In this document: one piece after another, positions 9,303-64,000 of the stretch
Layout of the letters: the number at the start of each line of letters is the position of its first letter
Position numbering within the stretch: the stretch's first letter is position 1
Source: Amycolatopsis nigrescens CSC17Ta-90
GTDB taxonomy: Bacteria > Actinomycetota > Actinomycetes > Mycobacteriales > Pseudonocardiaceae
Direction of reading: 5' to 3'
Assembly: GCF_000384315.1 (NCBI RefSeq)
Contig: NZ_ARVW01000001.1
Coordinates: 4,588,157-4,652,156, forward strand
DNA length: 64,000 nucleotides
Notes under the pieces: model-generated
Seen by the model: only the letters and a program-made list of their open reading frames with translations
Told to the model about the DNA's origin: nothing
The model's database searches: none
Program-made: the position numbers and the translations under genes

Positions 9303-10118
9303 GTGACCGTCCGGCTGGAGGTCGCCCCTGCCACACCCGACCCGGCGGGCGGCGGGCGACGCCTCGCGGACCTGCGGGTCGCGGAAGGGCTGGGCCGCGA
9401 GGCCGCGGTGCTGATCGCCGACGGCGGCATCCAGGCGGTCCCGATGCGGATGCCGCCCGGTGCCTGGGCGCTGCTGGTCACCGCCGCGGACCGGTGGGCT
9501 GCCAGCGGCGAGGTCGTGCTATTCGCCGGGCACTGGTGCGAGCATGCCTACCCGGCGTCCGGGTGCGATGGCGACCTCGTCCTCCAGTTGGCCCTGCCCG
9601 CCGCGGACGAGGCGGCCGAGGCCGGCGCCGATGCGGTGGCTGTGCGGCTCGCGGTGGCCGACCACGGCCGGTGGATGCCCGCGGGAACGTGGCCTCGCCT
9701 CGGTCGCGACTGGCCCGCCGTGGTAGCCCCCGTCGCCGCGGCCATCATGGGCGCCTCCATCGCCGCCGGGGAAGCCGACCCGCCCGCGCGGCGGCCGATG
9801 CGGGTGTTCGGTAGCCGGTCGGCGCGGCGAGTCGGCTTGCGTGACCTGCTCGACGCGGGCCTGGTGGCCGCCGGTGACGAGCTTGTCTACCGGCGGCCCG
9901 GTCTCGGGGTGCACTGGACCGGTCAGGTAACCGCTCAGGGCATGCTGCGGCTGGACGACGGGCGGGTGTTCGCCACGCCCTCGGGCGCGACCGACGCGCT
10001 GGGCAGCCCGAACCAGACCGGCTGGAGGTTCTGGCGCCGCGCCCGCGACGGCCATACCCTTCTGGACCTCCGCACCGAATACAAGTCCACTATGGACGGA
10101 TTTCATGCCGCGGGGTGA
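9303..10118 (+). CDS. RAMA-domain protein (modified-DNA reader candidate)
   Basis: A 271-residue product; GTG at 9303 follows the preceding stop. The C-terminal ~80 residues (about 177-258) match the RAMA pattern: VGLRDLLDAGLVAAGDEL, a beta-strand pair around ATPSGATDALG, NQTGWRFW, and a final LLDLR. RAMA domains are proposed readers of modified bases in restriction and related systems. The N-terminal region is unassigned; it has a few Cys/His residues (HWCEHAYPASGC) but no nuclease motif. A role in sensing DNA modification, perhaps by the element's own methyltransferase, is inference. The 3' end overlaps the next gene by 14 bp. Confidence 0.7.
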   Translation: MTVRLEVAPATPDPAGGGRRLADLRVAEGLGREAAVLIADGGIQAVPMRMPPGAWALLVTAADRWAASGEVVLFAGHWCEHAYPASGCDGDLVLQLALPAADEAAEAGADAVAVRLAVADHGRWMPAGTWPRLGRDWPAVVAPVAAAIMGASIAAGEADPPARRPMRVFGSRSARRVGLRDLLDAGLVAAGDELVYRRPGLGVHWTGQVTAQGMLRLDDGRVFATPSGATDALGSPNQTGWRFWRRARDGHTLLDLRTEYKSTMDGFHAAG

Positions 10119-50799: not shown

Positions 50800-50872
50800 G
50801 GGGCTGTAGCGCAGTTGGTAGCGCGTCTCGTTCGCATCGAGAAGGTCAGGGGTTCGATTCCCCTCAGCTCCA
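50800..50872 (+). tRNA. tRNA-Ala (CGC anticodon)
   Basis: Full cloverleaf: acceptor GGGGCTG pairs with CAGCTCC; anticodon loop TTCGCAT gives CGC; T arm AGGGG-TTCGATT-CCCCT. The CCA is not encoded. Intact, followed by its own terminator. Confidence 0.95.
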
Positions 50873-50922
50873 CCGGAAGTTCGATTTTTATGCTCTGACC
50901 TGCGGATTTGTTTGCAGAGTAG

Positions 50923-60071: not shown

Positions 60072-60314
60072 TCACTGGGACCGAAGCCAGCGCACTCGCT
60101 GCATTGCGTCGAGCGGGTGCGTGGGTTCAACGTCATCGAGGAGCGTCGCCAGCACCGAGCGTCTCCTCGCCGCCAGGAGCCGTCTGTCGGCGATGGTGCG
60201 GGCCCGCACCGTGTGTGGACCCGCTGGAGAAGGCAGTGGATTGCCTGGCCCGCTCTGCGGCACCTGCCGGATCAAGGGGAGTGAGCGTCGTTTCGGTAGA
60301 CGGATCTTGTCCAT
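60072..60314 (-). CDS. Small basic protein coupled to the DUF2637 gene
   Basis: An 80-residue Arg-rich product. ATG at 60314 overlaps the TGA of the upstream gene (TGATG). The second half is helical (RRLLAARRRSVLATLLDD). Function unknown. Longer upstream frames here are shadows of the DUF2637 gene. Confidence 0.5.
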   Translation of the reverse strand: MDKIRLPKRRSLPLIRQVPQSGPGNPLPSPAGPHTVRARTIADRRLLAARRRSVLATLLDDVEPTHPLDAMQRVRWLRSQ

Positions 60315-61129
60315 CAGGCGGCCACAGGTTCGCCACCACGCTCTGCGTCTCGCGGGACGTTGCTCGATCGCTGATCGCCCTCGACGCGCGCTTGAAACTC
60401 GGAGCGCACGGCCTTGACCAGTCGCTGCGCCTGAGTCGCGCCGATGCCCAACTGGACACGGAGCGCATCTGCCGAAATCGGCTTCTGGTGAGCGGCACGA
60501 TGCGTAGCGTCCGCTTCTCGCGCCAGCTCCAAGAGCTTCTCTGGCGAACGCTTTGGCCGCGTCAAGCGGGGCCCATCCTGGCCGCCTGCCTCCTCCCAGT
60601 TGGTCTCGCGGCCTACCGGGCTCATTCCGGGCTGCTCCCGCACGAGCAACTCCGGCTGCCCTTCGGTAACCGCGGTGCGCGTGGCCGTCGAGGAATTGCA
60701 TTCACCGATCGCCTGCAGGAAGCCGGGGCCCACTTCAGCCCAGCCGATTAAGAGGAGCGGCCCGACCGCGTCGAAGGCTGCCTTTCCGTACTGACCTGCC
60801 ACTACCGGGTCGGCCACGTTCAACGTCAACGTGACCATGCTTGCGAAGGTCAGGAGCCGACGAGCTGGCCGTAGTACGTCCGCGGAGGCGCCAGCGAGCG
60901 CAAGATGCCGAGTACCCAGCAGCAGACCAAGGATCGACAGGTCGACTGCAGGCGCGACGAGCGGCGCGACCCAGACCAGGACTCCCAGCCGGAGAGCGAG
61001 GCTGAGGACGTTGCCGAAGCCGAACAGGAAGGTGAGGCCGACGACGGCGCCCATGATCACGGTGACGGCCTTAACGACGGTGGCCCCGTCCGAACTTGAT
61101 CGAACTGACATGGTTGCTGGCCGGGTCAT
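60314..61129 (-). CDS. DUF2637 membrane protein with C-terminal HTH-like region
   Basis: A 271-residue product. Four membrane helices within residues 20-145 ([40 protein letters not shown]) match the DUF2637 family of actinobacterial plasmids and AICEs. The cytoplasmic tail ends in a HTH-like segment ([20 protein letters not shown]). Plasmid spread or transfer is the usual suggestion for the family. Overlaps the HTH gene upstream. Confidence 0.75.
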
Positions 61130-61647
61130 CGAAGATCACCTGCTTCGACGCGCGGACGTCCATGGCTGTCTCGCGTGGGGATGCCGCGTTCACGCAGCTT
61201 GTTCAGCACGGTGGTGTGGTTGACGCCTAGGCGTTCGCCGACTCGCGCCAGGGACCAGCCGAGGTTGTAGAGGTGGATGGCGTGGTCGACCTGGTCGGGG
61301 GAGAGACCACGGCGGCGCATCGGTACGCCGTGCCGATGGAGGATGTTGCTGACCGTTCGCCGTTCGATGTCGAACCGGTCACCGAGTTCGTACACTGTCG
61401 CGCCGGACTGGTAGCCCGCGATCAACTCCACGACTTGATCGGCACCGAGTTGCCGGGCACGCCGGGGCCGATCGCGCTCGATCGACGGCGGCTCGGGGGT
61501 ATCGAGGCTGGGAAGCTTCCCACGGAGCTCTTTCAGGGCTCTGAACTGGTCTTTTATGTTCGAGTAAGGTCCCCTAACCTCCACGCATAGGTGGCCCGTG
61601 CCCGTGGAGGGCGCGGGGCTTACGTTCTGCGTGTCTTGCGGGGGCAC
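61126..61647 (-). CDS. Helix-turn-helix protein, recombinase-associated type
   Basis: A 173-residue maximum product with two HTH units in tandem: [20 protein letters not shown] and [20 protein letters not shown], each in a resolvase-like context. The start is uncertain: residues before VEVRGPYSN may not be translated, and a GTG near 61581 is possible. This type of protein is common beside actinobacterial serine recombinases, but none is adjacent here, so it may be a detached remnant or a regulator of the DUF2637 gene it overlaps. Confidence 0.65.
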
Positions 61648-61803: not shown

Positions 61804-63222
61804 CTAGGCCGGGTCGCGGTACTGATGCAGCAGCCGGTTGAACCTCCGTAGCGTGTCGACTGCGTCCTCGGGCACAGGGTCGGGATGGAAGTGCATGACC
61901 TTGTTACGGATGACCCGGATCGTCTCCAGCCGGGCTACAAAGGCGGAACGATCCAGCGGCCAGCCCAGCCTGCCCCAGGCGTCTTTGTTCTCCAGAACAC
62001 GTAGGTAGTCACCGATGGTGAGCTGATCGAAGCTTTCGATCTGCCTGTTGCAGAACGGTCGAATAGTTTCGGCGTCGAAGGAACGACTCAAGATCCAACG
62101 GAGCGTTTCTTCCAGCTCGCCCAGCTGGAAGAATGGCGTAGCCAGCTCGCCATAGCGCTGTGCCACATCCGCTGTGGTGACAATGCCCTTGATAGCCTTG
62201 CTTTCGTCCAAGACGAATACAAAATCGCGCTGTTGCAGCGTGGGAAGAACCTCGAAAAGGTCACGATCGTACGGGACGACCTCCACATGAGGATCGATCG
62301 CATCGGCGACGCTTGCGTCGGGCTTCTGATGTATCGACTGAGCGATCGAGCGCCATGTTACGGCACCACGCAGATTACGAGGACCGCTCAAGATCGCGAG
62401 CTGTGAGAAGTCGTTGAGAAGCATCTTCGTGATCGCCTCTTCAAGTGGGCTGTTGGGCCCGACGGACTCGACGCCGAGAAGGGGAGACAGATTTCCCACC
62501 GTCAAGCGGACATTCAGATCGCCACCCTCTTCATCGTCCTCGGCGACCGCCAAGTCGTCCATTTCGGATGGCCCCACCGTTGCGGCCTCCTCAGTCTCGT
62601 CGGGGGGCGTAGTCAGCGAAACCACAGTATCGAGTGTCACCGCCCTGAAGCTGGGTGAAGTCAACAGTCCGTGGTTGGCCAAGTCCGCTTCGATCTGGCT
62701 GACCTGGTCGCCACGATCTTTTGCTCCCCAAAGCGCCAGGAGATCACGGACAGAAACGCGCTCAGGGTCCCGCTCGTCCGCGCGCATGCGCGCTCGCCTC
62801 AGGCGCGCATGGATACGCTGACGCTCTGTGTCCTCGGTCTGTTGGTTGGCCGCGGCCGCCGCTCTCGAAATCGTTCGGTCAAGCAGCTCCTGGCGAACGG
62901 CGTCCAGCAACCGCTCCTGGTCGACCACCTGCCAGGCACGCCAGCCGTCGACAGCCCGCATGCCGGCTGCCACCATGGCTGCCCGCGAGGGCGAGCGGAA
63001 CTCCTCTCCGCCGGGCTCAAGCCGGATCCGCCCCTTTTCGGTCACTGTCGCGTTGTAGGTCACACCGATACGATTGCGCTCGAACCTGAGTTTCGTATCT
63101 GCCTGGACGAGTCCAGCATCCAACAGGTCTGAAACCCTGACACGGCGTCCGCCGATCAAGTACATCGAGCGACCTCCGGCCTCGTGCTGTCCTACCATCG
63201 TCTCGTCGGCCACGGCGCTCAC
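61804..63222 (-). CDS. RAMA-CBS-HEPN fusion protein
   Basis: A 472-residue product. GTG at 63222 overlaps the upstream TGA (GTGA). Residues ~19-105 are a RAMA domain (VRVSDLLDAGLVQADTKL, FRSPSRAAMVAAG, VDGWRAWQV), a proposed modified-DNA reader. Residues 110-205 are helical with a DNA-binding look (SVRDLLALWGAKDRG). Residues 245-360 form a CBS pair (NSPLEEAITKMLLNDFSQLA, FVLDESKAIKGIVTTADV). Residues 365-472 resemble a Swt1/HEPN domain with RNKVMH (439-444), the RxxxxH RNase motif. A sensor linking DNA modification and a nucleotide ligand to RNA cleavage is inferred. Confidence 0.75.
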   Translation of the reverse strand: MSAVADETMVGQHEAGGRSMYLIGGRRVRVSDLLDAGLVQADTKLRFERNRIGVTYNATVTEKGRIRLEPGGEEFRSPSRAAMVAAGMRAVDGWRAWQVVDQERLLDAVRQELLDRTISRAAAAANQQTEDTERQRIHARLRRARMRADERDPERVSVRDLLALWGAKDRGDQVSQIEADLANHGLLTSPSFRAVTLDTVVSLTTPPDETEEAATVGPSEMDDLAVAEDDEEGGDLNVRLTVGNLSPLLGVESVGPNSPLEEAITKMLLNDFSQLAILSGPRNLRGAVTWRSIAQSIHQKPDASVADAIDPHVEVVPYDRDLFEVLPTLQQRDFVFVLDESKAIKGIVTTADVAQRYGELATPFFQLGELEETLRWILSRSFDAETIRPFCNRQIESFDQLTIGDYLRVLENKDAWGRLGWPLDRSAFVARLETIRVIRNKVMHFHPDPVPEDAVDTLRRFNRLLHQYRDPA

Positions 63223-63965
63223 CACTTCCGCAACCCTGAGAACTTGCGTCGAGACCCGATCGCCTGTTTGAGCACCCTCTTCTCAAGCTCTGTCTGGTTC
63301 AGCCGATTCACACGCGTGAGCTGCAATTCGGCGGCAACAGCGAGCAGGCTCTCCCGGTCCAGGTGCTGTGCGTGGAGGTAGGCGGCGCCTTCTTCCTCGG
63401 TCTCCATTTCATGCAGGCGCAGGGCGATGGCCGCCATGTCCGTATTTGGCTTTGCGGTTCTGGCCGACGATGTTGCGTTCGACGGCCGCGCTTCCCGGGT
63501 GGTGGCCGGCTGTACGGTGCCTGAGCTGCCGTCGCTCGGACTGGAAGACGAAGGCGCCGAAGTCTTCGGTCTGCCCGTGAGTGTTTCGGCCGGGCCTGGG
63601 CCGTGTGAGACCAGTAGATCGACAAGTCTGTCGAGAGTGAGCCTGCTATACCTGGACAAGCCACGCAGCTTAGCCACCTCCTGCAGACCGCGCTTGGACA
63701 ACGAAGCCGCTTTCAAGTAGGTCCGGCGTTCCTGTTCTGTCGCCGGCTTCGACAGCTCTTGTGCCACCCGCGATGGATCACGGGAAGGCACCATGGTGAA
63801 GTTGGTCAGCGCCGGGCTGGGAGCGGAAGCCCGTGCGTCGTTGGTGTGAAGAACAGCCAATCGCGCCTTCCCGCTGGTTATTGCCTGCAGGGTGGTCTCG
63901 TCCTGTTGTTCCAGGAACTCGTACAACCGAACCTGAAGGGCGACGAATCTCCTCAAATCGTTCAC
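63219..63965 (-). CDS. Protein with two SAP/Rho-N-like segments
   Basis: A 248-residue product; GTG at 63965. Two related helical segments, 67-119 and 179-237, share the pattern L-x4-TE-E...YL-A--L....L--VA--L-L-R-xRL-x-x-L. They resemble SAP or Rho N-terminal nucleic-acid-binding folds and are separated by a Ser/Pro/Thr-rich linker. The first 40 residues are a separate helical part. Translationally coupled to the RAMA-CBS-HEPN gene, so it is probably its DNA/RNA-binding partner. No enzyme motif. Confidence 0.65.
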   Translation of the reverse strand: MNDLRRFVALQVRLYEFLEQQDETTLQAITSGKARLAVLHTNDARASAPSPALTNFTMVPSRDPSRVAQELSKPATEQERRTYLKAASLSKRGLQEVAKLRGLSRYSRLTLDRLVDLLVSHGPGPAETLTGRPKTSAPSSSSPSDGSSGTVQPATTREARPSNATSSARTAKPNTDMAAIALRLHEMETEEEGAAYLHAQHLDRESLLAVAAELQLTRVNRLNQTELEKRVLKQAIGSRRKFSGLRKW

Positions 63966-64000
63966 TGGTGATCACCCGACGGCAGTGCCAGCGCCCCCAG

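Follow-up and report, generated by a model that had tools for sequence, protein, structure and literature searches.

A RAMA-bearing CBS-HEPN protein related to DS-11 and its ParA-type and SAP-like partners form a candidate defence cassette in Amycolatopsis

Background

DS-11, validated in 2026, is a one-protein defence system of E. coli with CBS and HEPN domains. According to the passages on it in the DefensePredictor paper (PMC13092281), defence is abolished both by the Y157A substitution in the CBS domain and by HEPN catalytic mutations, and its ligand, an adenine derivative, is said to remain undiscovered. That CBS domains bind nucleotides and thereby gate HEPN RNases had been proposed for the HEPN-CBS(-HD) proteins of Anantharaman et al. 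2013 (PMC3710099), where the parts of the article devoted to these proteins mention no RAMA domain, ParA or SAP partner. The base specificity of RAMA domains is itself debated: their reading of m6A is in dispute in the relevant sections of two papers (PMC9963953, PMC11037411), one of which relates that a structural study of the MPND RAMA domain saw no 6mA preference and that the CcrM RAMA domain contacts the DNA backbone without specific base contacts (PMC9963953).

Here we report on an operon at one end of a 64,000-nucleotide stretch of the Amycolatopsis nigrescens CSC17Ta-90 genome, the whole of which we call the window. Its effector shares with DS-11 a match over the full length of the core, tandem CBS domains, an R-N-x3-H HEPN motif and an aromatic residue at the Y157 position; unlike DS-11, which acts alone, the cassette adds an N-terminal RAMA domain and translationally coupled genes for a ParA and a Rho_N/SAP-like protein. 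GmrSD and other type IV restriction systems likewise tie a putative modified-DNA reader to a nuclease effector, and relatives of the core are paired with GmrSD_N in 5 of the 24 places described below, but the cassette has no recognised DNA endonuclease domain and its effector is an expected RNase. The KGGVGKTT ParA followed by a DNA-binding-like protein recalls ParABS, from which the cassette differs in being chromosomal, in being coupled to a defence-type effector, and in having neither a repeat common to the ParA upstream regions of 10 loci nor a Pfam match of ORF2 to ParB.

An earlier reading of the letters alone (the sequence-only reading) knew of no described system with this architecture. 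That stands as regards the fused RAMA domain and the partner genes, which look new, but not for the CBS-HEPN core, which is known from DS-11. In the open-access PMC literature we found no description of the RAMA, CBS and HEPN architecture, nor of a ParA ATPase as the conserved partner of an RNase immune effector.

Results

The sequence-only reading had described a two-gene operon, and both ORFs are confirmed at their minus-strand positions, coupled by a GTGA overlap (Table 1). The pair is real but incomplete, and the observation is confirmed in part: the edge of the window cuts through the operon, and on the single 9.1-Mb contig of the genome a third gene, for a ParA-type ATPase, lies directly upstream, its end overlapping the ORF2 start by 4 nt. 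The order is ParA, Rho_N/SAP-like ORF2, RAMA-CBS-HEPN effector. We placed the ParA start at a conserved ATG (C1:4653062) following a purine-rich box, which is GGGGAG-like in most of the 19 loci compared below, and saw no small antitoxin-like gene within the operon.

Table 1. Features of the operon and the nearby tRNA gene. Positions are those of the window, except where C1 denotes the genome contig.
Feature	Position	Strand	Remarks
RAMA-CBS-HEPN effector gene	61804..63225	-	473 aa; alternative GTG start 63222
RAMA domain, effector residues 21-117	62875..63165	-	Pfam PF18755, E 2e-21
DS-11 core, residues 160-466 (linker, CBS pair, predicted HEPN)	61828..62748	-	NF053863
CBS pair, about residues 241-362	62140..62505	-	F273 aligned with DS-11 Y157
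HEPN motif R440-N441-x3-H445	61891..61908	-	invariant, 52/52 rows
ORF2, 248 aa	63219..63965	-	two Rho_N/SAP-like helical segments; conserved basic C-terminal tail
ParA-type ATPase gene, 3' end	63962..64000	-	last 39 bases inside the window
ParA gene, remainder	C1:4652118-4653062		beyond the window; 314 aa from conserved ATG
tRNA-Ala(CGC)	50800..50874	+	borders the variable hotspot in which genomes of this genus carry the cassette

Two of the domains proposed for the effector are borne out by Pfam, RAMA with 76.4 bits against a cut-off of 35.2 and the CBS pair as two domains (E 1.4e-9). The core also matches the NCBIfam equivalog model DS11_antiphage from end to end (model positions 1-305 of 305) with 271.3 bits; the cut-off is 260, and the margin of just 11 bits counts against our preferred reading. 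Judged from its sequence, the C-terminal half belongs to the DS-11 family, and the effector as a whole is predicted to be a DS-11 protein carrying an extra N-terminal head, the RAMA domain.

A tblastn search identified a relative in E. coli (32% and E 7e-40, across residues 157-467), within a 4.9-Mb sequence that is labelled a plasmid; the relative's DNA is present in 127 of 5426 E. coli genomes and always chromosomal. The protein has 365 aa, scores 404.9 bits to the same model, and in Pfam shows CBS only, RAMA being absent. By sequence it is very likely DS-11 itself, because it has a tyrosine (within HDYSQLP) at exactly position 157, the position mutated in DS-11. In an alignment of 52 relatives, which takes in E. 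coli, two alphaproteobacteria and one haloarchaeon, the column of this residue holds F in 25 rows, Y in 23 and V in 4.

The proposed HEPN domain with an RxxxxH-type motif stands as to the motif, R440, N441 and H445 being invariant in all 52 rows, while the profile match falls below cut-off: HEPN_Swt1 is matched below cut-off at E 0.064 and, among 11 members, in 3 (best E 0.014), and in one member the unrelated DCX scores better (0.0056). The C-terminus is all-helical. A sequence profile of this domain matched nothing among PDB sequences, and a fold search with the whole effector gave CBS-type matches alone among the best 50 listed. No DNA-nuclease family is among the effector's Pfam matches at E<=1, and its PADLOC matches are confined to the RAMA part.

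The upstream gene encodes a ParA-type ATPase (AAA_31, E 1.6e-33, 116.6 bits against a cut-off of 27) whose deviant Walker A motif, KGGVGKTT, is invariant in 12 of 12 rows; its closest solved structures include Soj/ParA proteins, and it is of the Soj/ParA partition type. The Rho_N/SAP profile is below cut-off for the window's ORF2 and above it (28.9 vs 24.9) in L010, one of three trio homologues scanned. ORF2 has no ParB among its Pfam matches and no Foldseek match at E<=0.001. The 700 bases upstream of ParA, compared for 10 loci, have no recurring direct repeat; four of these loci have two-copy repeats, each different.

The three genes travel together among close relatives. ParA and ORF2 lie directly upstream of a close effector homologue (identity about 61% or more) in 19 of 19 non-redundant loci on different contigs (the window, L005-L013, L016, L017, L045-L050 and L088), with interrupted genes in L013 and L016. 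Judged by tblastn ends, the exact 4-nt overlap of ParA stop and ORF2 start could be read in 17 of them, all but L017 and L049. The reverse search, with ParA at E<=1e-70, found 12 of 200 family genomes, 11 of which are exactly those with the trio loci. The twelfth (G094) has ParA, a 125-aa ORF2-like protein and a convergent gene (L080:6972-9448); the N-terminus of the latter is of PDC-S02 type (E 1.9e-26; 34% to the L054 N-terminus, described below), and its C-terminus matches HEPN_RiboL-PSP below cut-off (E 2.7e-4). ParA/ORF2 pairs were also found with no effector seen, in L087 and in a contig of a viral collection (L134), and these weigh against our preferred reading. The L087 ParA found 0 of 246 genomes of the class at E<=1e-70, a threshold that missed even the window's own ParA.

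The partner conservation expected of homologues therefore holds for the close ones and not for the distant ones. RAMA-CBS-HEPN homologues that are 40-44% identical from end to end, wherever they are intact (L014, L015, L051-L053 and L081), lack ParA and ORF2 within the 19 to 21 kb at each locus, which we also count against the preferred reading. Five of them (L014, L015, L051-L053) apparently sit among housekeeping genes, as suggested by gene sequences for L014 and L051 and by shared gene clusters for the other three. In a tree with several long branches, the RAMA-bearing rows form one branch (97/98) and the trio-type rows one branch inside it (92/100), the trio label of the P-id rows being assumed from similarity.

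In L051 the RAMA-CBS-HEPN gene and an ATPase-like gene (cluster 61; L051:8309-11991) are flanked by two pieces, of 225 aa and 75 aa, that belong to a single gene family, as if the pair had been inserted into that split gene, which we take to be metallo-beta-lactamase-like. The 225-aa piece is also found upstream in L052 and L053, and the ATPase-like gene also in L053.

With the effector as query at E<=1e-30, we found 24 places in 23 of 200 genomes of the same family, and all 24 carry a putative DNA sensor: a RAMA fusion in 14, a PDC-S02-type fusion in 5 and a separate GmrSD_N gene in 5. The RAMA fusions, assigned by alignment, comprise the 11 trio loci together with L029, L030 and L031, which are without ParA; L031 has an in-frame stop. 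The PDC-S02-type N-termini are those of L032, L033, L037, L039 and L041 (long loci L054-L056, L060 and L062). In L054, the one member scanned, this region is hit by PADLOC PDC-S02 and by a model for a type II restriction enzyme, and a PDB search with it returned nothing credible; we presume a kinship with EVE/PUA readers. In L056 a distant ParA (26%) follows about 1.2 kb after the effector, past an integrase-like gene. In the remaining five places (L034-L036, L038 and L040) a short CBS-HEPN protein adjoins a gene for GmrSD_N, which is part of type IV restriction systems; the single such protein scanned gave Pfam E 2.6e-26.

In L057, L058, L059, L061 and L063 the unit has two genes, one for a GmrSD_N protein of about 600 aa and one for a short CBS-HEPN protein of DS-11 type, and in L057 and L061 they overlap by 4 nt. 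This unit makes a second DS-11 variant.

The cassette is mobile, uncommon and unevenly distributed, and in the window's genus it occupies a tRNA-Ala hotspot. Of 25 genomes sampled from the genus, all have moeA and four have a trio-type effector, always at a distance of about 2 to 13 kb from that gene; one more genome has a 44% relative on another contig. A tRNA-Ala(CGC) stands at about equal distance from moeA in 20 of the 20 sites compared (out of the 25 sampled), and among the first six ORFs beyond it no gene family is common to at least 3 of these 20 sites. In G805 about 50 bp separate the end of the effector from the tRNA. Across the 19 trio loci, tRNA-Ala is present in the stretch examined in seven (six CGC, one TGC), and flanks are common to L010, L011 and L047 and to L045 and L046 but otherwise mostly differ. 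Phylum-wide, the core was found in 3 of 396 genomes including the window's, which alone exceeds the DS-11 cut-off.

No plasmid record covers 80% of the effector; seven match at E<=1e-10, all through the C-terminal part. Short CBS-HEPN relatives (about 255 aa; L067, L068) occur on haloarchaeal plasmids of Haloarcula and Halobaculum. The phage genomes of INPHARED gave no match. Seven IMG/VR contigs, phage or prophage (L127-L133), carry DS-11-like single proteins, several of them among what we take to be P2-like structural genes, as cargo would be.

The type I restriction genes noted beside the operon do end about 2 kb from it in the window, but beside the other trio loci no type I genes were seen among the families listed (25 of 32). 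With PADLOC at E<=1e-15, the 147 proteins flanking the 19 trio loci (up to four per side) matched 32 families. Sixteen of the 25 listed belong to type I S and R and score as the window's own two genes do; the remaining nine are WYL (two), mad2, mad3, a type IV restriction enzyme, UzuA (two), PD-Lambda-4_B and Csa3, the protein matched by the last being an ArsR-type regulator in Pfam. A control of 147 proteins from 19 arbitrary places in 11 of the trio genomes matched nine families: mad3, mad8, SspH (two), PolA-like, subtilase, PDC-S03 (two) and PDC-S33. The expected enrichment in defence islands is thus not clear against the control once the window's own restriction-modification genes are set aside. 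By Pfam, with 25 of 127 families listed, the trio neighbours are mainly ordinary genes, a further point against the preferred reading.

Between the type I genes and the operon (window 60314-61647, minus strand) lie genes for a predicted membrane-type protein with no Pfam match and an HTH protein, which presumably resemble plasmid or integrative-element genes. A second RAMA protein of 271 aa is encoded at 9303-10118 on the plus strand; RAMA (E 1.4e-20, C-terminal residues 170-262) is its sole Pfam match at E<=0.001, and the surrounding region, in the left part of the window, looks like an integrative element.

Discussion

Based on these observations, we consider it somewhat probable that the trio is an anti-phage or anti-mobile-DNA cassette, a variant of DS-11 in which RAMA and the ParA/SAP-like pair provide sensing and the effector acts as a nucleotide-gated HEPN RNase; its defence activity and the role of ParA are what we infer here. 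The ParA ATPase and the SAP-like protein would keep the effector on DNA or search DNA together with it, and RAMA would engage foreign DNA, possibly through a base modification, although the reading of modified DNA by this domain is putative. By homology to DS-11, an adenine ligand in the CBS pair would control HEPN activity. Once DNA is engaged and the CBS pair has an adenine nucleotide bound, the HEPN domains might rearrange or dimerise, and the activated RNase would cut cellular RNA, arrest the cell and so stop phage growth. The logic of reader, CBS gate and HEPN executioner offered by the sequence-only reading is accordingly partly supported, namely for the effector and by homology: the DS-11 model's cut-off is passed, and DS-11 mutants lose defence.

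The same core could serve DS-11-type defence with no modification reading at all, RAMA being a general dsDNA tether, the trigger a change in adenine nucleotides upon infection, and ParA and ORF2 setting dosage or location. That DS-11 works as a single protein in the published passages (PMC13092281), that RAMA is absent from the Pfam matches of the E. coli relative, and that the MPND and CcrM domains, as described in part of one paper (PMC9963953), show no 6mA preference and backbone contacts with no specific base contacts, respectively, all speak for it. We nevertheless judge it rather unlikely, since the same core bears putative sensors of three unrelated types, among them a type IV component, in 24 of 24 places in the family, and a mere tether would not need such substitutes.

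Alternatively, ParA and the SAP-like protein may partition or tether DNA in chromosomal or mobile-element maintenance, with HEPN as an addiction toxin, as the Soj/ParA type of the ATPase and the ParA/ORF2 pairs standing alone in L087 and L134 would suggest. This is improbable in our view: the ParA upstream regions of 10 loci have no recurring repeat, 80% coverage of the effector is reached by no plasmid record, the trio sits at a tRNA-Ala site in this genus, and no small antitoxin-like gene was seen in the operon. Most doubtful of all, and in our estimate very improbable, is a guard over the neighbouring type I restriction genes, in which the HEPN protein fires upon restriction inhibition; the distance of about 2 kb in the window invites the idea, but within the 147 flanking proteins every type I family listed (25 of the 32 families are listed) has a single match, at the score seen for the window's genes.

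Conclusions

The reading that we prefer, a DS-11 variant with added sensing partners, bears on DS-11 itself. In actinobacterial relatives the DS-11 core is joined to putative DNA sensors of three kinds, which suggests that foreign DNA is an input, and these sensor-linked relatives supply constructs for testing it. More tentatively, ParA and the SAP-like protein could be a portable, ATP-dependent DNA-scanning module that delivers varied HEPN executioners to foreign DNA recognised by a reader domain fused to them. We would entertain, as a possibility of the same tentative kind, that the executioners are of DS-11-type CBS-HEPN here and of RiboL-PSP type in L080, with DNA engagement and a nucleotide signal as its two keys. 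If this were true, a partition-type ATPase would be the search engine of an RNA-cutting immune system.
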